From contig NZ_JAAITU010000006.1 in assembly GCF_013304385.1 (NCBI RefSeq), positions 1-64,000 on the forward strand: a stretch of DNA of 64,000 nt. Reading direction: 5' to 3'. Positions 3,048 to 13,256 of the stretch are shown piece by piece. Within the stretch, counting starts at the first letter, position 1. Each line of letters begins with the position of its first letter. This DNA is from Blautia glucerasea. Its GTDB lineage: Bacteria > Bacillota > Clostridia > Lachnospirales > Lachnospiraceae. The translations under genes and the position numbers were made by a program. The notes under the pieces were generated by a model. It made no database searches. It saw only the letters and a list, made by a program, of their open reading frames with translations, and was not told the DNA's origin.

Positions 3048-4052
3048 ATGCATATACCTGAGAACTATTTAAGCCCATCAACCTGTGCAGTTATGACAGC
3101 AGCCATGGTTCCTGCATGGGGGTATTCAATTAACAAAGTAAGAAAGGAAATACCAAAGGCAAAAATGCCGCTTCTTGGTATTGGCGCTGCTTTTTCATTC
3201 CTTGGAATGATGTTTAATGTACCACTTCCGGGAGGTACTACAGGGCATGCAGTAGGAGGAACGCTTATTGCAATTCTCACAGGAAGTCCGTCAGCAGGAT
3301 GTATATCAGTATCTATTGCGTTGTTGATACAGGCACTGCTTTTTGGTGATGGAGGGATTCTCGCATTTGGAGCGAATTGTTTTAATATGGCTTTTGTGCT
3401 GCCCTATCTGGGATATTTCTTGTATAAACTGCTTCTGAAAAAGACAGGAAAGCGTAAACTTAGTGCTGCGATCGGGTCTTATGTGGGGATCAACGCAGCA
3501 GCTTTTTGCGCAGCTGTTGAATTTGGAATACAGCCTTTGTTATTTAAAGATGCGGCGGGACAGGCACTTTATTGTCCATATCCTCTAAGTGTGTCTATAC
3601 CGGCGATGATGATCGGACATATCACTTTATTTGGACTGGCAGAGATTGTGCTGACAGTAGTAGTGCTGACATTTGTAGAAAAAGTATCTCCTTCCGCATT
3701 GGATGCAGTTCCGGATAAGACTTCATTTAAACCGTTGTACGTATTGACCGCAGTGCTTATCGTACTGACACCGATTGGTCTTCTTGCCACAGGTACCGCC
3801 TGGGGTGAATGGGGTGTTGATGAAATGGCAACGCTTGTCAGTGGAGGTGTAAAGCTTGGGTATACACCATCAGGAATGAAAAGTGGATTTGAGCTTTCAG
3901 CCTTGTTTCCGGATTATTCGATGGCCGGTATGCCGGAATGGACAGGATATATACTTTCTGCTGTTGTAGGTGCGGCAATTCTGGTGATCTTTTTTAAGAT
4001 CGTTTCTTCTCTTATGAAGGACAAGGTTGATTTCAAAAAGAAAGCGGCATAA
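3048..4052 (+). CDS. cbiM: Cobalt/nickel ECF transporter substrate-binding subunit CbiM
   Basis: Substrate-specific membrane subunit of an energy-coupling-factor importer for Co2+ or Ni2+. The N-terminus MHIPENYLSPST has the invariant second-position His that coordinates the metal in CbiM/NikM. Membrane helices fill residues 10-225, with the conserved FNVPLPGGTTGHAVGG and FGDGGILAFGANCFNM segments. A C-terminal extension (about 230-334) ends in another helix and replaces a separate CbiN/NikL protein, which suits the absence of a cbiN gene. It is followed by cbiQ after 2 bp and then cbiO. Metal choice cannot be fixed from sequence; two B12-type leaders within 5 kb make cobalt the better guess. 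Confidence 0.92.
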   Translation: MHIPENYLSPSTCAVMTAAMVPAWGYSINKVRKEIPKAKMPLLGIGAAFSFLGMMFNVPLPGGTTGHAVGGTLIAILTGSPSAGCISVSIALLIQALLFGDGGILAFGANCFNMAFVLPYLGYFLYKLLLKKTGKRKLSAAIGSYVGINAAAFCAAVEFGIQPLLFKDAAGQALYCPYPLSVSIPAMMIGHITLFGLAEIVLTVVVLTFVEKVSPSALDAVPDKTSFKPLYVLTAVLIVLTPIGLLATGTAWGEWGVDEMATLVSGGVKLGYTPSGMKSGFELSALFPDYSMAGMPEWTGYILSAVVGAAILVIFFKIVSSLMKDKVDFKKKAA

Positions 4053-4054
4053 GA

Positions 4055-4870
4055 ATGGATAATGAGAGAACAGAGATAACAAAGATTCCGGCTTGGATGT
4101 GTGGGCAGGAAGAGTACATTCCTGCAAATGGCAGGGAATCCTTTCTTACCAAAAGCACGAAATCTGTATTGTCTGTACTTGCAAAATTAAGATTTAATGA
4201 AGGGAAGGACAGCAGATTTTCTGCTGCTCCTTCTCTTAAATTGTTTTATACGATATTCTTTATAATTCTGACAGCTTCGGCACGAAATTATTTGTTTGTA
4301 TTGATCATGTGTGCTGCAGTGACTGTTCGTCTGGCTTTTTTTTCAGCTGCAGCCATCAGACAGATCTTAAATGGAACAGTAGGAGCAGTTCTGATTTCGA
4401 TACTTTTTCTTTTGCCGGCTGTATTTATGGGAAATCCACAAGCTCTGGCCAATATAACAGCGAGAGTATATGTATCTGTAACATTGGTGGGGATATTGTC
4501 ATCAGGCACATCGTGGAATAAACTGACAGGCAGCATGAGAAGCTTTAGAATACCGACGATATTCATTTTTACCTTGGATATAACATTGAAATATATTTCT
4601 GTTCTGGGAGAAATATGTATGGATATTCTGCGGTCAGTCTGCTTGAGATCTGTCGGCAAAAATCCGGATAAGGCAAGAACTTTTTCGGGTGTGCTTGGAG
4701 TTACATTTCTTAAATCAAGTGAAATGGCAGAAGAAATGTATGCAGCTATGTGCTGTCGGGGATTTACAGGCGAGTATGAAATAAGACATAAGCAGAAATA
4801 TAGTCTGATCGATCTGATGTATATTCTGGTAATGGTGGGATGTGCAGCTTTGTATATATACCTTAGCTGA
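4055..4870 (+). CDS. cbiQ: ECF transporter transmembrane component CbiQ
   Basis: T-component that couples ATP hydrolysis by CbiO to CbiM. It has several hydrophobic helices (about 70-85, 88-108, 112-135, 140-160 and 250-268) and the cytoplasmic coupling helices with the two Ala-Arg-Gly-like motifs in modified form (LRSVCLRSVG, about 195-205, and MCCRGFTG, about 227-234). At 271 residues it has the usual length. The start ATG lies 3 bp after the cbiM stop, so the two are probably translationally coupled. The Arg-Gly of the second motif is intact. Confidence 0.88.
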   Translation: MDNERTEITKIPAWMCGQEEYIPANGRESFLTKSTKSVLSVLAKLRFNEGKDSRFSAAPSLKLFYTIFFIILTASARNYLFVLIMCAAVTVRLAFFSAAAIRQILNGTVGAVLISILFLLPAVFMGNPQALANITARVYVSVTLVGILSSGTSWNKLTGSMRSFRIPTIFIFTLDITLKYISVLGEICMDILRSVCLRSVGKNPDKARTFSGVLGVTFLKSSEMAEEMYAAMCCRGFTGEYEIRHKQKYSLIDLMYILVMVGCAALYIYLS

Positions 4871-4976
4871 TAAGAACTTTAAAGTGAATCTGGCAGATCG
4901 GCATTTACTGTGAGTGGAGAGAATAGTAGAAATTATCTGCGAGAGTATTTCAGGGATAAATTGAGAGGAGATTGAA

Positions 4977-5645
4977 ATGATCGATCTGGAAAAGGTGTGT
5001 TTTGCATATGAGAGTGAAAAAGCCCTTAGATATATTGACCTTCATATTGAAAAAGGAGATTCTGTAATTGTTCAGGGACCAAACGGATGTGGAAAATCGA
5101 CTCTTATCAAGCTGTTGAATGGGATCATTTTTCCTTCGGAGGGAGAGTATCTTTATAAGGGACATGCAATTACAGAGAAAGCACTGAAGGACAGAAAGTT
5201 TGCAAAATGGTTTCATCAGCAGATGGGATATGTGTTTCAAAATGCGGATACCCAATTATTTTGTGGAAGTGTAGAAGAAGAGATTGCATTTGGACCAGTC
5301 CAGATGGGACTGTCAGATGCAGAAGTTCATGAGCGCACAGAAGATTGTCTGAAGTTATTTGGAATAGAGAAATTAAGAGAAAGACCGCCTTATCATTTGA
5401 GTGGGGGAGAAAAACGTAAAGTCTCTCTTGCATGTATTATTTCTTTGAATCCTGAGGTGCTGATTCTGGATGAACCTTTGGCAGGATTGGATGAAAAGAC
5501 CCAGGACATGTTGATAGAGTTTTTACAGAGCTTTCATAAGGCTGGAAAGACATTGATCACAATTACACATAACCGGCAGCTGGCAGAACTTTTGGGAACC
5601 AGGTTTGCACTTATGAATGAAGAACATGAACTGAAAATGATATAA
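4977..5645 (+). CDS. cbiO: ECF transporter ATPase CbiO
   Basis: Cytoplasmic ABC ATPase that energises cobalt/nickel uptake. It has a Walker A (GPNGCGKST, about 32-40), Q-loop (MGYVFQNADTQLF, with the NPDxQ-like sequence typical of ECF ATPases), signature LSGGEKRKVS (about 140), Walker B VLILDEP with catalytic Glu (about 160-167) and H-loop ITITHN. At 222 residues it is slightly short at the C-terminus compared with many CbiO proteins (about 270). Ribosome-binding site GAGAGGAG. There is a 106-bp gap after cbiQ without a terminator; a strong terminator follows the gene. Confidence 0.93.
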   Translation: MIDLEKVCFAYESEKALRYIDLHIEKGDSVIVQGPNGCGKSTLIKLLNGIIFPSEGEYLYKGHAITEKALKDRKFAKWFHQQMGYVFQNADTQLFCGSVEEEIAFGPVQMGLSDAEVHERTEDCLKLFGIEKLRERPPYHLSGGEKRKVSLACIISLNPEVLILDEPLAGLDEKTQDMLIEFLQSFHKAGKTLITITHNRQLAELLGTRFALMNEEHELKMI

Positions 5646-7437: not shown

Positions 7438-7580
7438 AGCAGGTATTCTGACTTACGCAGTAACGTCACGGCTCGCCTTCTCACAGAAAATCTGCAATGG
7501 ATATGAGCAGTAACTGCACGTATACAGCAGCACGACTGTCCAGGATTCTCACCTGATTCCCTCTTGGCTGTATACCTGCT
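7438..7580 (-). promoter_or_regulatory. Cobalamin (B12) riboswitch
   Basis: Read on the minus strand, this has the landmarks of the class I cobalamin aptamer in order: closing stem GCAGGTAT/ATACCTGC, the GGGAA block, the P4 hairpin ATCAGGTGAGAATCCTG, the following GGACAG..GCTGCTGTA junction, and the 3' block AGTCAGAATACCTGC (consensus AGTCAGGAgACCTGC). These elements occur together only in B12 riboswitches. The transcript continues into the LRR gene starting at 7249. Confidence 0.88.
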
Positions 7581-7599
7581 ATCAGACATACCATGGTAT

Positions 7600-7722
7600 A
7601 CAGAACTTAAAACCGGTAATTAGTTTAAGTTATTCAATTACTTTTAATATAAGGGATAAATGAAGAAAAGGCAAGGAAAATAGAAAAATTTGTGAAAGGT
7701 TATTAAAAAAAATGTTAAAGGC
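7600..7722. other. AT-rich spacer between divergent B12-type leaders
   Basis: No gene seen. It should contain the promoter for the minus-strand riboswitch transcript; I could not identify its boxes with confidence. Confidence 0.4.
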
Positions 7723-7752
7723 TTGACAGACTGGAAAATGTACCATATAATC
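7723..7752 (+). promoter_or_regulatory. Sigma-A promoter of the transcobalamin-like surface protein
   Basis: Consensus TTGACA and TATAAT with a 17-bp spacer, both boxes perfect. It lies about 290 bp upstream of the start codon, leaving a long structured leader. Confidence 0.88.
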
Positions 7753-7785
7753 ACAAACCAGTGGGACAAAATAGAATAGAGAAGT

Positions 7786-7860
7786 ACAGATATTTTGAGA
7801 ATCAGTGAAATTCTGATACAGGAAGGTGCATTGCCGTAAAGTCGGCGGTCGGATATCTGT
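7786..7860 (+). promoter_or_regulatory. Compact cobalamin-riboswitch-like aptamer
   Basis: An 8-bp closing stem ACAGATAT (7786-7793) / ATATCTGT (7853-7860) encloses GAGAA, the hairpin ATCAGTGAAATTCTGAT (P4-like, with the GTGAAA loop of B12 aptamers), a GATACAG-like junction and a GCCG/CGGC hairpin, ending in GTCGGATATCTGT, which resembles the 3' box GTCAGGATACCTGC. At about 75 nt it is shorter than class I aptamers and departs from them in the junction, so this could be a variant B12 aptamer or an unrelated fold. Confidence 0.5.
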
Positions 7861-7899
7861 AAAATAAGGTAAATCAATTCTGCATGACGAATGACTATC

Positions 7900-7955
7900 A
7901 GGTAACGAAGTTTCCTCTATAAATAAGGGGAGGCTTGTTACCTGTTTTTATTTTT
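7900..7955 (+). terminator. Leader terminator (attenuator) before the surface protein
   Basis: AGGTAAC (7900-7906) pairs with GTTACCT (7937-7943), with an inner CCTC/GGGG helix, followed by a T-rich tract. It sits between the aptamer-like fold and the gene and is the expected OFF switch. Confidence 0.8.
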
Positions 7956-8045
7956 GCGGATAATGAGCCAAAGGCCATGTGGATAAGGAACCGAAATCTG
8001 ATTTTGTCTGAATAAAAAACGAATAAAAACAAGGAGAGGAATGGA

Positions 8046-11000
8046 ATGAGGAACAAAAAGTATGTAAAGCAGTTACTCAGTATTGTGATGATCGGTTTGT
8101 TATCCCTTAACGAGCCGATGATCGCCCTGGCAGAGTCAGAAGCGCTTCTCACATCGGAACTGCCGGCACAGGTAGTGGATGTGATAGATGCGGATGATAC
8201 TGCAGGGGAAGCAACAGACTATGAAGAAGTTACTGCAGATGAGTTTGTGGATGAGCCACAGGAAGTAGCAGGATCAGAGGATGAGGAACTGTTCCAGGAC
8301 GGAACAGAGGATGCCCAGACAGATCTGTATGATGGGGAAACCATGGTACAGGATGCAGATGCTTCTGAATTCCCAACAGAGATCCTGGCAGGCGATACAT
8401 ATAAACTGGAGAAGGATATTACTTTATCAAATGGCCAGCAGATCAAGAATCTGGCAGGAACCCTGGATGGACAGGGGCATACCATCACACTGTCAGGCAG
8501 TGCACTGGCAGTGAATGTATCCGGAACGATCCAGAACCTGGGAGTAAAGGGAAGTGTTACTGTATCTGAGGATCATAAAGGAGTAATCGCAGATACTCTT
8601 ACCGGAACATTACGTAACAGCTATTCTGTTGTAGGTATTAAGGATGATGGTTTCATGTCTGAGGTAGGCGGACTGGTAGGAAAAATGACCGGAGGAACCA
8701 TACAGAACTGTTACTTTGCAGGCAGTGGAGATTCTTATATGATGGTGCATGGTATTGCATCCTATAACAATTCAGCAGAATCCAAGGTCAGCAACTGTTA
8801 TTTTATAAATTCTTTGGATGCGTTTGGAATAAATAAACCAGAATTACAGCAGACAAATTGTGCCAGCAAGACGGATGCAGAAATGAAGAGTGAAGGGATT
8901 GTTGCTCTTCTTAATACAGCAATTGCAGGAACCGGTTATGTGTTTGCATATGCAGAGGGCAGCTATCCGGTTCTGAAAGAGGGAGTGGCAGAGGTAAGCT
9001 GGGCAGCCCTTGACAGTGCACTGGAACAGGCAGGAGTCTTAAATAAAGAAGAGTATAAAGCAGATACCTGGAAGGCACTGGAAGATGCGGTGGCAGAAGG
9101 GAATGCATTAAAAGAACAGACAGAAGCCTCTCAGGAAGAGATCAACAGTGCTGCAGATAAGATTACAAAGGCTATCGCAGGGCTGAAAAAAGAGACAATT
9201 GTAAAGCCGGTATCCATTCCGGAAAATGCAACACCGATTGCATCTCAGGCAGATTTTGCAAAGATGGCCAATGCAAAAGGAAAATATTTTGTTTTAACAC
9301 AGGACATTACCATTGACAGCGGTTATATGGCTGTTTCTGATTACATGAATTATGAGGCTTTTGCAGGTGTACTGGATGGTAAGGGCCATACCATTACATT
9401 TGAACAGGCCGGAGCTGTCTTTGCTTCCCTGACGGCAGGTGCAATCGTGCAGAATGTGAACGTAACAGGAACAATGACCGGCACTGAGGTTACAGGACCC
9501 TTTGGTAAGACTGCTTACGGGGCTTCAATCCTGAACTGCCGAAGTGACATCAGTGGAAGCAATGTGGCTGGCTTTATTGGAAAAACCGGAGCTTATATGG
9601 GAGCCACTGCTTCACAGGACTGTGCAGGCGTGATCGCAAACTGTATTGCAATCGGTGATAACGGAAAGGGTGCACTTTGCAACAGCAGCAGCAACCAGAC
9701 CGGGGCGGCAGTGATTAAGAACTGCTACTGGGTAGATACTTTAGGCAGCGGTTCAGGTGCCATGTCTGAGGAGGACATGAAAACTCTGGATCTGGTTGAA
9801 AAATTAAATGCCAATAAAGGTGACAACGGAACTTCCTGGGGTCAGGGAAGTGATGGATATCCATATTTTGGAGAGAACCAGTCTTACACACCAGGAAGCT
9901 TTAAATGGCCGGAAACAGGAGAAAACAAGTATCCTATCGCATTTCAGGCTTATAACGGAACAGAGGCCGTTACATTAGAGGATGGACGCCTGGAAGTATC
10001 ACCAGATGCAGTGGGTATGGCGAATGTGGCAGGAACCTTTTCTTTACAGGACTATACAGCACCCAAGGGAAGCAGTGTGTCATGGGGATTCTCCCAGAGA
10101 AAACCGGAAAGTGCTTTTGCTGTTTATGATGAGGGATTATTCTGTGTCAGCGGAACAGGAGTAGCAGTTGTGACCGCCACTCAGAATAACAGTGACGGAA
10201 GCAGTGAGCTTCTGGCTTCTGTAGCAGTCCGTTCTTCCAGACAGAAGCTGACAGATATCAAGCTGTATATTGACGGCGAAGATGTAACAGACGGATCATT
10301 TACCGTACAGGGGTCAGAGTATAAGAGAATTGTTGTAAAAGCACAGTATCAGGAAAATGGTGCTTATCAGGATGTATCTTATGCATCTTTTACCTATACA
10401 GCTGATGAAGAGGGCACAAAATTACTCAGTAACCGTGTGAACAGCTCCAGCGGATTTGCTTTTAAAAATCCTGGAACAGCAACCTTTACAGTAACAGCCA
10501 AAAATCAGCCTGAAATGAAGAAGACTATAATTGTAACATCTGCCTATGTTCCGGTAGAGTCAGTTACACCTGCAATTTCAGGAACAAAAGAAATCCATAC
10601 CAGAAATGCCAACAGTGACGGACAGGAGACGGACGGAAGAGTGGCATTTAACCCGATCCTTGGATCAGCGATCGTCACACCTGCGAATGCTACAAATGCA
10701 GATAAAGTAACCATTACCAGTGACGATCCGGAAGGAACTATTGCGTACTACACCAGCGGGGAAAAGGGATATGTGCCAAAGCAGGCAGGAACCGTAACCT
10801 TTACCGCAACGATTGAGGATACAAATCCCCTGACCGGAGAAACAAAGACGGTTTCCGGTGACAGTACTGTAACATTTGTATATAAGAATAATGTAAAATC
10901 TGTGGAGCTTGCAGAGGCAGACAAAGAGATCACTGTAGAAGCAGGAAAGAACAGTGACACATTCAAACCGGTAGTGACAGGAGAACTGGATGAGCAGGGA

Positions 11001-13256
11001 TATGATGTTACAGAGCCTGCACTGAAATGGACTTACAGCAAGAAAGGTATTGCTCAGGTAGTCAGAACCGGAAGCGGATACTGGAAGAAGAATGGAAATT
11101 ACAATGTAAGTGATCCGGATTACGGTTCTTACCTTCCTGTTGCAGAATATCAGGTAATGGGCCTGTCAGAAGGTACTGTAACGGCAACCGGAACACCGAT
11201 TGACAACAAAAACAATGTGGAGCCAGTTACCATCACCATTACAGTAACAAAAGGAAGCGGAACCGGAGTTGATGTAATTGCAAAAGCAAATGAAGGTGCA
11301 GACAATGCACTGGATTACATTGAGAGCAGCCATAATGACAAGGGCTACGCGTATGGTAATGAATGGCTGATCTATGCTATGCTTCAGGGCAATAAGGAAC
11401 TGAGCGAAGAAGTAAAAAATGCATATTATACGTCTGTTGCTACAGAAGTAACGAACTGGGACGAAACAAAGAAACCAACGGATATTGAGCGTACTGCCCT
11501 GGCACTTGCCAGACTTGGAAAAGACATTACAGATGTAGATGGCGTTAATCTGGCTGCCATGATTTACAATTCTGGGAATCTGACAGACGGATCCAACGAG
11601 CTTGCATATGCGCTGCTTGCACTGGATGCTGCAAATATCACCATTCCATCTGCTGCAAAATGGTCAAGGTCAGCCATGATCGCAGAGTTGCTGAAATTCC
11701 AGAATGCAAATGGCGGATTTGGATTAACAGAAAATGAATCAGCCAGCGTAGATATGACGGCTATGGTATTACAGGCCCTGGCACCATATCAGAACCGTGT
11801 AGGTGTAAAAGAAGCGGTTGATAAGGCTCTGGTATATCTCCAGGATCAGCAGAGAGATGACTTTGGATATGGCACTGCAGAATCTACAGCACAGGTACTG
11901 CTTGCCCTTACCTGTCTTGGCATTGATCCAACTTCTGTAGAAGGCGGATTTGGTACACCTGATTTTAACCTGATCACTAACCTGATGAAATATCAGCAGG
12001 CAGATGGTGGATTTTCTCATAATATGAATGTTGGAAAATCACAGGAAATGTCTACTGTGCAGGTATTACAGGCTCTTGATGCATATCGCAGTGGAAAGAC
12101 AACTTATTGGGCAGTAAAAGGTGAATATGTAAGCGTTATGGTATCTGTTCTGGGTGATGAAGTACATAACAGTGATGAAGATGGACAGATCCATGTATTG
12201 TCCAGAAATAATCTGACTGTCTGGGCTGCACAGGCTGAATACCGTGTGGCAAAAGCTTCTACAGCTATGGAAGCCATTGACGCAGCGCTGGCAGCAGCAG
12301 GAATGACCTGCGAAAAGAGATATGAAGGCACTTATATTTCATCCGTAACAAACAGTAATGGTGTAAAGCTTGGCGAATTTACCAATGGTAAAAAGTCTGG
12401 CTGGCTATACAGTGTAAATGGAAAAGATGCAGATGTAGGAGCATGTGATTACAAATTATCAGATGGGGATGAAATTATTTTCCATTATACTGATAATTAT
12501 ACAAAGGAAAACACGTCAGCAGATCATCAGCACAGCTGGGGAAGTGGCACAGTGATAAAAGATGCAACCTGTACAATTGCTGGTGTCCGCATATTTACAT
12601 GTGAATGCGGAGAGACAAAAACAGAAACCATTCCTGCAACAGGTCATCAGTTTGGAAATTGGGAGAAAGTATCTGATGCAACTGTATTTGCCCCGGAGAA
12701 AGAAGCACGTACCTGCAGCGTTTGCAAGCAGGAAGAAACGAGAGACAACGGCGCGAAGCTGAAGGCAACCATCAAAGTAAATGCAACTACACTTCCACTG
12801 AAGGTAAAACAGAAGACAAGTGCCCTGAAGGTCAGCGGACTGGCAAAGGGAGATTCTGTAAAATCCTGGAAGTCAGGTAACACAAAGATCTTCACTGTAT
12901 CCAGTAAGGGTGTTATTACAGCAGGAAAGAAGACTGGAAAGGCAACATTGACTATTACACTTGCCAGCGGCCTGAAAAAGAATATCACCGTTAAGGTGCA
13001 GAAGAGCACAGTAACCACCAGCAAGATCAGCGGCTTAAAGTCCAAGGTAACTCTTAAGAAGGGCAAAAAGCTTACATTAAAGCCGGTACGCACACCGATC
13101 ACATCCAAACAGAAGTTTACTTACAGCACTTCCAACAAGAAGATCGTAGCAGTAAGCGGCAAAGGCGTGATCACAGCAAAGAAGGCTGGAAAAGCTAAGA
13201 TCACAGTGAAATCCGGTAAAAAGAAATTTACGGTAACGGTAACTGTAACAAAATAA
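8046..13256 (+). CDS. Giant secreted protein with transcobalamin-like barrel plus DUF4430
   Basis: A 1736-residue secreted protein. Order of parts: signal peptide (1-30, ending ALAESEA); an acidic linker; beta-helix/GLUG-type repeats (about 105-311); FIVAR-type helical module (318-381); a second GLUG-type region (388-618); Ig-like/BIG-type domains (about 650-1075); an alpha/alpha-barrel with QNANGGFG, DQQRDDFGYG and QQADGGFS repeats (1085-1350); DUF4430 (1356-1483, GWLYSVNGK and LSDGDEIIFHYT); a Cys-rich HSWGSGTVIKDATC repeat pair (1495-1560); and lysine-rich BIG2-type repeats to the end (1575-1736). Barrel plus DUF4430 is the architecture of vertebrate transcobalamin and intrinsic factor. 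There is no LPXTG motif; attachment may be through the basic C-terminal repeats. The leader carries a perfect promoter, a B12-like aptamer and a terminator. Corrinoid binding is inference; polysaccharide or adhesin roles remain possible. Confidence 0.85.
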   Translation: MRNKKYVKQLLSIVMIGLLSLNEPMIALAESEALLTSELPAQVVDVIDADDTAGEATDYEEVTADEFVDEPQEVAGSEDEELFQDGTEDAQTDLYDGETMVQDADASEFPTEILAGDTYKLEKDITLSNGQQIKNLAGTLDGQGHTITLSGSALAVNVSGTIQNLGVKGSVTVSEDHKGVIADTLTGTLRNSYSVVGIKDDGFMSEVGGLVGKMTGGTIQNCYFAGSGDSYMMVHGIASYNNSAESKVSNCYFINSLDAFGINKPELQQTNCASKTDAEMKSEGIVALLNTAIAGTGYVFAYAEGSYPVLKEGVAEVSWAALDSALEQAGVLNKEEYKADTWKALEDAVAEGNALKEQTEASQEEINSAADKITKAIAGLKKETIVKPVSIPENATPIASQADFAKMANAKGKYFVLTQDITIDSGYMAVSDYMNYEAFAGVLDGKGHTITFEQAGAVFASLTAGAIVQNVNVTGTMTGTEVTGPFGKTAYGASILNCRSDISGSNVAGFIGKTGAYMGATASQDCAGVIANCIAIGDNGKGALCNSSSNQTGAAVIKNCYWVDTLGSGSGAMSEEDMKTLDLVEKLNANKGDNGTSWGQGSDGYPYFGENQSYTPGSFKWPETGENKYPIAFQAYNGTEAVTLEDGRLEVSPDAVGMANVAGTFSLQDYTAPKGSSVSWGFSQRKPESAFAVYDEGLFCVSGTGVAVVTATQNNSDGSSELLASVAVRSSRQKLTDIKLYIDGEDVTDGSFTVQGSEYKRIVVKAQYQENGAYQDVSYASFTYTADEEGTKLLSNRVNSSSGFAFKNPGTATFTVTAKNQPEMKKTIIVTSAYVPVESVTPAISGTKEIHTRNANSDGQETDGRVAFNPILGSAIVTPANATNADKVTITSDDPEGTIAYYTSGEKGYVPKQAGTVTFTATIEDTNPLTGETKTVSGDSTVTFVYKNNVKSVELAEADKEITVEAGKNSDTFKPVVTGELDEQGYDVTEPALKWTYSKKGIAQVVRTGSGYWKKNGNYNVSDPDYGSYLPVAEYQVMGLSEGTVTATGTPIDNKNNVEPVTITITVTKGSGTGVDVIAKANEGADNALDYIESSHNDKGYAYGNEWLIYAMLQGNKELSEEVKNAYYTSVATEVTNWDETKKPTDIERTALALARLGKDITDVDGVNLAAMIYNSGNLTDGSNELAYALLALDAANITIPSAAKWSRSAMIAELLKFQNANGGFGLTENESASVDMTAMVLQALAPYQNRVGVKEAVDKALVYLQDQQRDDFGYGTAESTAQVLLALTCLGIDPTSVEGGFGTPDFNLITNLMKYQQADGGFSHNMNVGKSQEMSTVQVLQALDAYRSGKTTYWAVKGEYVSVMVSVLGDEVHNSDEDGQIHVLSRNNLTVWAAQAEYRVAKASTAMEAIDAALAAAGMTCEKRYEGTYISSVTNSNGVKLGEFTNGKKSGWLYSVNGKDADVGACDYKLSDGDEIIFHYTDNYTKENTSADHQHSWGSGTVIKDATCTIAGVRIFTCECGETKTETIPATGHQFGNWEKVSDATVFAPEKEARTCSVCKQEETRDNGAKLKATIKVNATTLPLKVKQKTSALKVSGLAKGDSVKSWKSGNTKIFTVSSKGVITAGKKTGKATLTITLASGLKKNITVKVQKSTVTTSKISGLKSKVTLKKGKKLTLKPVRTPITSKQKFTYSTSNKKIVAVSGKGVITAKKAGKAKITVKSGKKKFTVTVTVTK

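Follow-up and report, generated by a model that had tools for sequence, protein, structure and literature searches.

The window described here, the whole stretch of DNA that was analysed, comprises 64,000 nucleotides of Blautia glucerasea (contig NZ_JAAITU010000006.1, positions 1 to 64,000) and lies within contig C142 of a 3.99 Mb genome. Its open reading frame 8046-13256 (+) encodes a protein of 1736 amino acids (P0001) in which computation on structural models shows a two-domain region homologous to the vitamin B12 carriers of animals. The structured leader of the gene is, by computed covariation, a cobalamin-type riboswitch. Across related genomes this class of proteins is tightly tied to RF00174 cobalamin riboswitches and to CbrT-like components of energy-coupling factor (ECF) transporters. 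Because its core resembles the animal carriers and its gene stands behind a B12-type RNA switch, the protein most likely grabs external B12 when the vitamin is scarce. That it acts as a B12-repressible extracellular corrinoid catcher, as a first-pass annotation of the sequence had proposed, is considered highly probable; the match of the structure to transcobalamin and the cobalamin type of the leader support that reading, and capture itself is a prediction.

The reading frame and its order of domains, an alpha/alpha barrel followed by DUF4430, were as previously annotated and are confirmed by translation, Pfam and an AlphaFold2 model. The barrel occupies about residues 1085-1358 (11298-12119, +) and is assigned to no Pfam family at E<=0.001; in the ortholog L073, which is 68% identical in this region, the barrel matches Prenyltrans at 9.7e-5, under the family cut-off. 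DUF4430, of the transcobalamin C-terminal type, is matched at residues 1405-1482 (12258-12491, +) with E=4.6e-14 and 53.1 bits against a cut-off of 23.8; in the model this domain starts earlier, at about residue 1361. A FIVAR-like region is found at residues 321-380 (9006-9185, +; Pfam 24.5 bits, under the cut-off of 29.2) and a Big_2 immunoglobulin (Ig)-like domain at residues 1666-1734 (13041-13247, +; Pfam 1.2e-7). The protein is probably secreted, to judge by eye from its signal-peptide-like N-terminus.

Residues 1085-1490 were modelled with AlphaFold2 from a nine-sequence alignment (A1), with a mean predicted local distance difference test score (pLDDT) of 88.4 and a predicted template modelling score (pTM) of 0.88. 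In the model, a helical barrel with 12 helices takes up the segment to about its residue 265, and an alpha/beta domain comes after it. In a Foldseek search of the PDB, ranks 1-15 were all entries of haptocorrin, transcobalamin or intrinsic factor, with E values from 1.9e-10 (haptocorrin, ranked first) to 4.3e-8. These alignments span 439-464 columns, gaps included, and cover both domains, at 11-17% identity. A model of the ortholog L078 (pLDDT 83.7, pTM 0.62) again gave animal B12 carriers only, at ranks 1-14. An extra spacer separates barrel and DUF4430 in L077 and L078, which indicates a variable linker. A sequence profile built from 11 bacterial DUF4430 domains returned eight PDB matches at E<=10, each of them an intrinsic factor, haptocorrin or transcobalamin sequence, with 1.6e-4 as the best E value. 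The window protein thus shares with the vertebrate carriers both folds and their order, a barrel and then a beta-grasp C-terminal domain, but the pair is embedded in a multidomain bacterial protein of 1736 residues and its modelled domains are placed differently. The structural comparison suggested beforehand was therefore borne out for folds and order and not for the relative placement of the domains around the corrinoid. An identity as a prenyltransferase or cyclase enzyme was rejected, since terpene cyclases and farnesyltransferases matched more weakly than the B12 carriers (Foldseek from 3.2e-5), mostly over shorter alignments. The modelled C-terminal domain also resembles the fold of PDB entry 3u7z (RUMGNA_00854, Ruminococcus gnavus), deposited as 'putative metal binding'. 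The label of a DUF4430 protein was set aside for 3u7z, which is absent from the eight PDB sequences returned by the DUF4430 profile. It may be worth a corrinoid test.

The leader begins with a promoter-like TTGACA-17-TATAAT at 7723-7751 (+), a perfect match (12 of 12 positions) as annotated earlier and likewise present in L073. The compact candidate aptamer follows at 7785-7861 (+), where the only riboswitch match is RF01689 (AdoCbl-II), at 18.3 bits and E=0.17. A putative intrinsic terminator (7899-7955, +) consists of a hairpin of 19 pairs at 7899-7944 (-25.6 kcal/mol, z=-6.5) and then TTTTTATTTTT, a T-rich tail. The annotated terminator holds in this form, as hairpin and T-run; a pattern-based scan found no terminator in the leader under its own rules. 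The arrangement would make an OFF switch that works by termination. Sequence comparison lends moderate support to a proposed kissing loop of the aptamer with a hairpin farther downstream; in the window it would join 7826-7830 with 7881-7885 (+), the latter in the loop of a small hairpin at 7877-7892. Watson-Crick kissing 5-mers occur in five of seven leaders when matched, against four of 42 when the leaders are mismatched (10 of 5040 permutations). The window's own loop has four Watson-Crick pairs and one G-U and so falls outside these five; with G-U allowed, the count is undistinctive (707 of 5040 permutations), and a shuffle test on single leaders was weak (112, 18 and 513 of 1000 shuffles with a fit).

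The L073 locus mirrors the layout of the window, with an RF00174 match on the opposite strand (6238-6036), a leucine-rich repeat (LRR) gene and the perfect promoter. Its leader matches AdoCbl-II at a sub-threshold 20.3 bits; a second L073 copy, upstream of another large protein, reaches 23.6 bits against the Rfam model and 52.2 bits against a model named R1. All three leaders tested have AdoCbl-II as their match of lowest E-value, covered at full length, 1-81 (18.3, 20.3 and 23.6 bits). The window and L073 leaders share a structure of 20 pairs, eight of which are changed on both sides, against 0-1 in slid controls. A second model, R2, was built from the window aptamer and these two relatives and run on 294 related genomes, where it found, beyond the window, six new copies of at least 35 bits; 15 further rows were all at or below 27.3 bits, and of these only L084 was looked at. 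In genomes G414 and G442 one copy each lies directly upstream of an operon of DUF4430, barrel, EcfT, EcfA and CbrT-like S component genes, and one further copy each upstream of a DUF4430 protein of 1168 or 1950 residues, with LRR genes and an L073-like TIM-barrel gene nearby. The copy in G412 precedes, after one unscanned reading frame, a cobalamin biosynthesis operon in which CbiL, CbiF, CobB and CobQ pass their NCBIfam cut-offs, whereas a precorrin-8X methylmutase stays under its own. In G555, from another family of the same order, the copy is upstream of BtuF, BtuC and PduO family matches, all under cut-offs, and BtuF and BtuC are not the top-ranked names for their genes. Of the six copies, four thus stand in front of genes of the DUF4430 class and the other two in front of B12 genes that were recognised independently. 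Among nine sequences, in an alignment that was fitted to the model, both partners vary in 17 of 20 pairs, and 96.1% of cells are paired, compared with 3-6 pairs and 37-51% of cells in slid controls.

The fold described in the first pass as B12-aptamer-like is therefore of cobalamin type by covariation and by the gene contexts of its relatives, though below the Rfam threshold. The proposed covariance-model check gave RF01689 as sole riboswitch match over its full length, but with 18.3 bits against a gathering score of 36.5. RF01689 is listed as AdoCbl-variant, Marine, by Weinberg et al. 2010 (PMC2864571). The present leaders resemble it in the full-length match and in cores of the GUGAAAUUC and GUAAAGUC type; they differ in scoring 18-24 bits and in occurring in Lachnospiraceae-type genomes. 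The leader of L078 matches RF00174 instead, at a sub-threshold 26.6 bits. Searched as an exact pattern, the leader core was matched by the window alone among 397 family genomes, the pattern being too strict. Five other matches of model R1 in 299 genomes (23-26 bits) lay in or overlapped reading frames by eye and were taken as noise, and an RF01689 match on contig C21 of the host genome (position 23042, 20.6 bits) was dismissed as lying within an open reading frame. A further sub-threshold AdoCbl-II match of 23.6 bits was noted on contig C129 (L013; 165-238, minus strand), near the contig end, so that any gene under its control would be cut off.

RF00174 occurs six times in the host genome. On contig C98 (L016/L017) it leads an operon of LRR_5, EcfT, EcfA, S component, AP_endonuc_2 protein and barrel protein genes, continued by MoxR and DUF58 genes (named by eye), a transglutaminase, DUF4430 and large secreted-looking proteins. 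The sole PDB match of the S component at E<=1 is a chain of 182 residues in 6fnp, the ECF-CbrT entry (E=4.8e-16). The AP_endonuc_2 protein has CbiR as its best NCBIfam match, below the cut-off (49.9 against 105). The name CbiR was rejected for other TIM barrels, as AP_endonuc_2 is the only Pfam match of those in L073 and G414, and the one in G414 has no NCBIfam match. C98 also carries a sub-threshold AdoCbl element (RF01482, 28.6 bits) upstream of a further protein. On contig C32, RF00174 lies upstream of two secreted-looking proteins, a Peripla_BP_2 and FecCD pair and then a probable ATPase (by eye). With the C98, C32 and RF01482 loci taken together, the window protein belongs to a set of proteins that are linked to B12 and probably extracellular.

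The association was counted in those 38 of 200 family genomes where the two-domain query, or a single part of it, has a match at E<=1e-10. These hold 84 DUF4430 matches (two below the cut-off were kept) and 68 RF00174 matches (one below the cut-off was kept). An upstream RF00174 on the same strand lies within 2, 5, 10 and 20 kb of 15, 26, 40 and 45 of the 84, where uniform placement predicts 0.05, 0.14, 0.27 and 0.54; a control with the thiamine pyrophosphate (TPP) riboswitch gave 0 of 84 at every distance. The neighbourhood survey called for in the first-pass annotation was thus strongly positive. The S component of C98, used as query, gave 42 rows that merged to 38 loci, and a CbrT-like S component was found in 37 of the 38 genomes. 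DUF4430 lies near it on the same strand at 34 of the 38 loci within 5 kb (about 0.15 expected) and at 35 within 10 kb. As these genomes had been picked for a barrel or DUF4430 match, 150 family genomes (taken as G000-G149) were also searched without preselection. The S component was present in 34 of them: in 26 of the 27 with a barrel or DUF4430 match, against eight of the 123 without (Fisher p=4.9e-21). Seven of those eight have a same-strand match to the DUF4430 profile near the S component; G109 has none.

A transcobalamin-type domain in low-GC Gram-positives, fused to alpha/alpha toroids, FIVAR and Ig domains, was described by Burroughs et al. 2007 (PMC1796856), who also reported operons that include CbiO/CbiQ-like genes and who proposed that the domain scavenges B12 and was transferred to animals. 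The window protein agrees with their transcobalamin-clade SLBB/DUF4430 proteins in a DUF4430 above the Pfam cut-off, an adjoining alpha/alpha toroid, FIVAR-like and Ig parts and the proposed scavenging; theirs are secreted, with the toroid on either side. In contrast to their description, whose main text does not contain the word 'riboswitch', the genes here are tied to cobalamin riboswitches and a CbrT-like S component, with a compact riboswitch of its own before the window gene. As a class the proteins had been predicted already, and the system reported here is a variant of that prediction. The first-pass annotation knew of no experimental description of such a system; the idea itself is already in print, and no experimental test of the 2007 prediction was found in the open PMC literature, to which the search was confined and in which six papers mention DUF4430. 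New are the riboswitch link, the CbrT-like partner with its counts, the structural match over two domains and the compact cobalamin riboswitch group below Rfam thresholds. The predicted surface capture of B12 has a counterpart in BtuG and BtuH of the Gram-negative outer membrane, whose folds are not known to be related to barrel and DUF4430. These surface B12 binders of Bacteroides (PMC6143338, PMC8941943) and the window protein, by prediction, are alike as B12-linked extracellular capture proteins of gut bacteria. In the ECF-CbrT vitamin B12 transporter (6FNP), the membrane S component itself is described as the substrate-binding protein (PMC5997447); the C98 operon has a homologous S component, but here it is accompanied by barrel and DUF4430 proteins.

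For the window protein we infer secretion, corrinoid binding, a direction of regulation, hand-over and surface retention in the following form. At low intracellular levels of adenosylcobalamin, or of a related corrinoid, the leader aptamer would stand empty, the terminator would not form, and the protein would be made and secreted. A corrinoid would then be bound between barrel and DUF4430 or on their surface, in the manner of transcobalamin and intrinsic factor, and would be handed to uptake systems such as the CbrT-like ECF transporter of C98 and possibly the BtuFCD-like one of C32. The FIVAR-like and Ig-like parts would probably retain the protein in the cell envelope. The broader proposal, that a family of bacterial transcobalamins, whether barrel and DUF4430 lie in one protein as here or in two, serves as extracellular carriers for CbrT-type ECF transporters, one lineage of them under a compact cobalamin riboswitch subgroup missed by Rfam thresholds, is put forward as the somewhat likelier case. 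If this is true, Lachnospiraceae-type Gram-positives own an extracellular route of B12 capture with a role like that of Bacteroides BtuG and parts like those of the human carriers, and bacterial DUF4430 proteins gain a function as extracellular carriers added to ECF-type vitamin transport. The 2007 proposal that animals obtained transcobalamin from Gram-positive bacteria would then become directly testable.

Several observations weigh against corrinoid capture by the window protein. Over both domains, the two ligand-free models superpose on the carriers with a root-mean-square deviation of 20-23 and TMq of 0.34-0.44; the domains are thus placed unlike those of B12-bound carriers, and a corrinoid cleft is unsupported by the models. 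The window leader, taken alone, is under the Rfam gathering score, and the leaders of L074, L075 and L053 (G027) gave no Rfam match at E<=0.1. By eye, the L075 leader has a B12-like core despite this. Same-strand RF00174 is absent within 20 kb of 39 of the 84 DUF4430 matches, and the window gene itself is outside the 40 linked cases because its RF00174 is on the other strand. The sole transporter beside the gene is a cobalt transporter, with no CbrT-like or Btu gene adjoining, and the protein has no LPxTG motif to anchor it at the cell surface.

A protein made under B12 control might bind something else, for example a metal or a glycan of the cell wall or of mucus. This has in its favour that DUF4430 is part of a superfamily that binds more than one kind of ligand and that barrels of this fold are common, that the cobalt transporter is the nearest transporter and fold neighbour 3u7z was deposited as metal binding, and that the FIVAR-like and Ig-like parts are of kinds common in adhesins. 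Burroughs et al. 2007 and a reviewer of that paper also considered that ligands might be diverse (PMC1796856). The pair of barrel and DUF4430 is, however, that of the animal B12 carriers, the only proteins that the DUF4430 profile returns from the PDB, and the class travels with CbrT-like ECF components; another ligand is therefore thought unlikely. Less likely still is that the protein, regulated by B12, acts as an adhesin or faces competitors and draws B12 out of other carriers, host-bound B12 being one example, by protein contact and without a pocket of its own. Its very large multidomain architecture would suit such a role, and in vitro BtuG2 of Bacteroides can remove B12 that is bound to intrinsic factor (PMC6977713), but no sign of a protein partner was found, and the homology is to the carriers and not to their receptors. 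That the leader is a structured attenuator which senses no corrinoid would agree with the sub-threshold Rfam scores of all three leaders tested; it is given very little credence, since AdoCbl-II is their best match at full length and independent copies stand upstream of a cobalamin biosynthesis operon and of BtuF/BtuC/PduO-like genes.

Divergent from the window gene is a BspA-type LRR_5 protein (P0002; 6416-7300, -; Pfam 1.5e-57) under a classical cobalamin riboswitch, RF00174, at 7625-7421 (-; 88.5 bits, E=1.6e-20, gathering 31.5), as the earlier annotation stated. Its paralog, 39% identical, heads the RF00174-led ECF operon on C98. Across this gene, upstream, lies the cobalt ECF transporter CbiM(PDGLE)-CbiQ-CbiO (3048-5645, +; Pfam), given here as genomic context; the window gene is outside any CbiO/CbiQ-like (EcfA/EcfT) operon, and ECF T is present in 14 of 27 related loci examined.

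Elsewhere in the host genome, a second MoxR-DUF58-transglutaminase cassette (by eye) with DUF4430 was seen on contig C175 (L018). A small DUF4430 protein, lipoprotein-like by eye, is encoded on C94 (L015; 4580-5164) and adjoins ThiE- and ThiD-like genes (by eye); it has no RF00174 within 20 kb and is a possible class member with another ligand. A large Ig-domain protein of 1441 codons, putatively secreted, lies directly downstream of RF00174 on C85 (L020; 5387-9712). On C32 (L022; 8054-10816) a putatively secreted protein of 920 residues, with no Pfam match, stands between RF00174 and the BtuF/BtuC-like pair.

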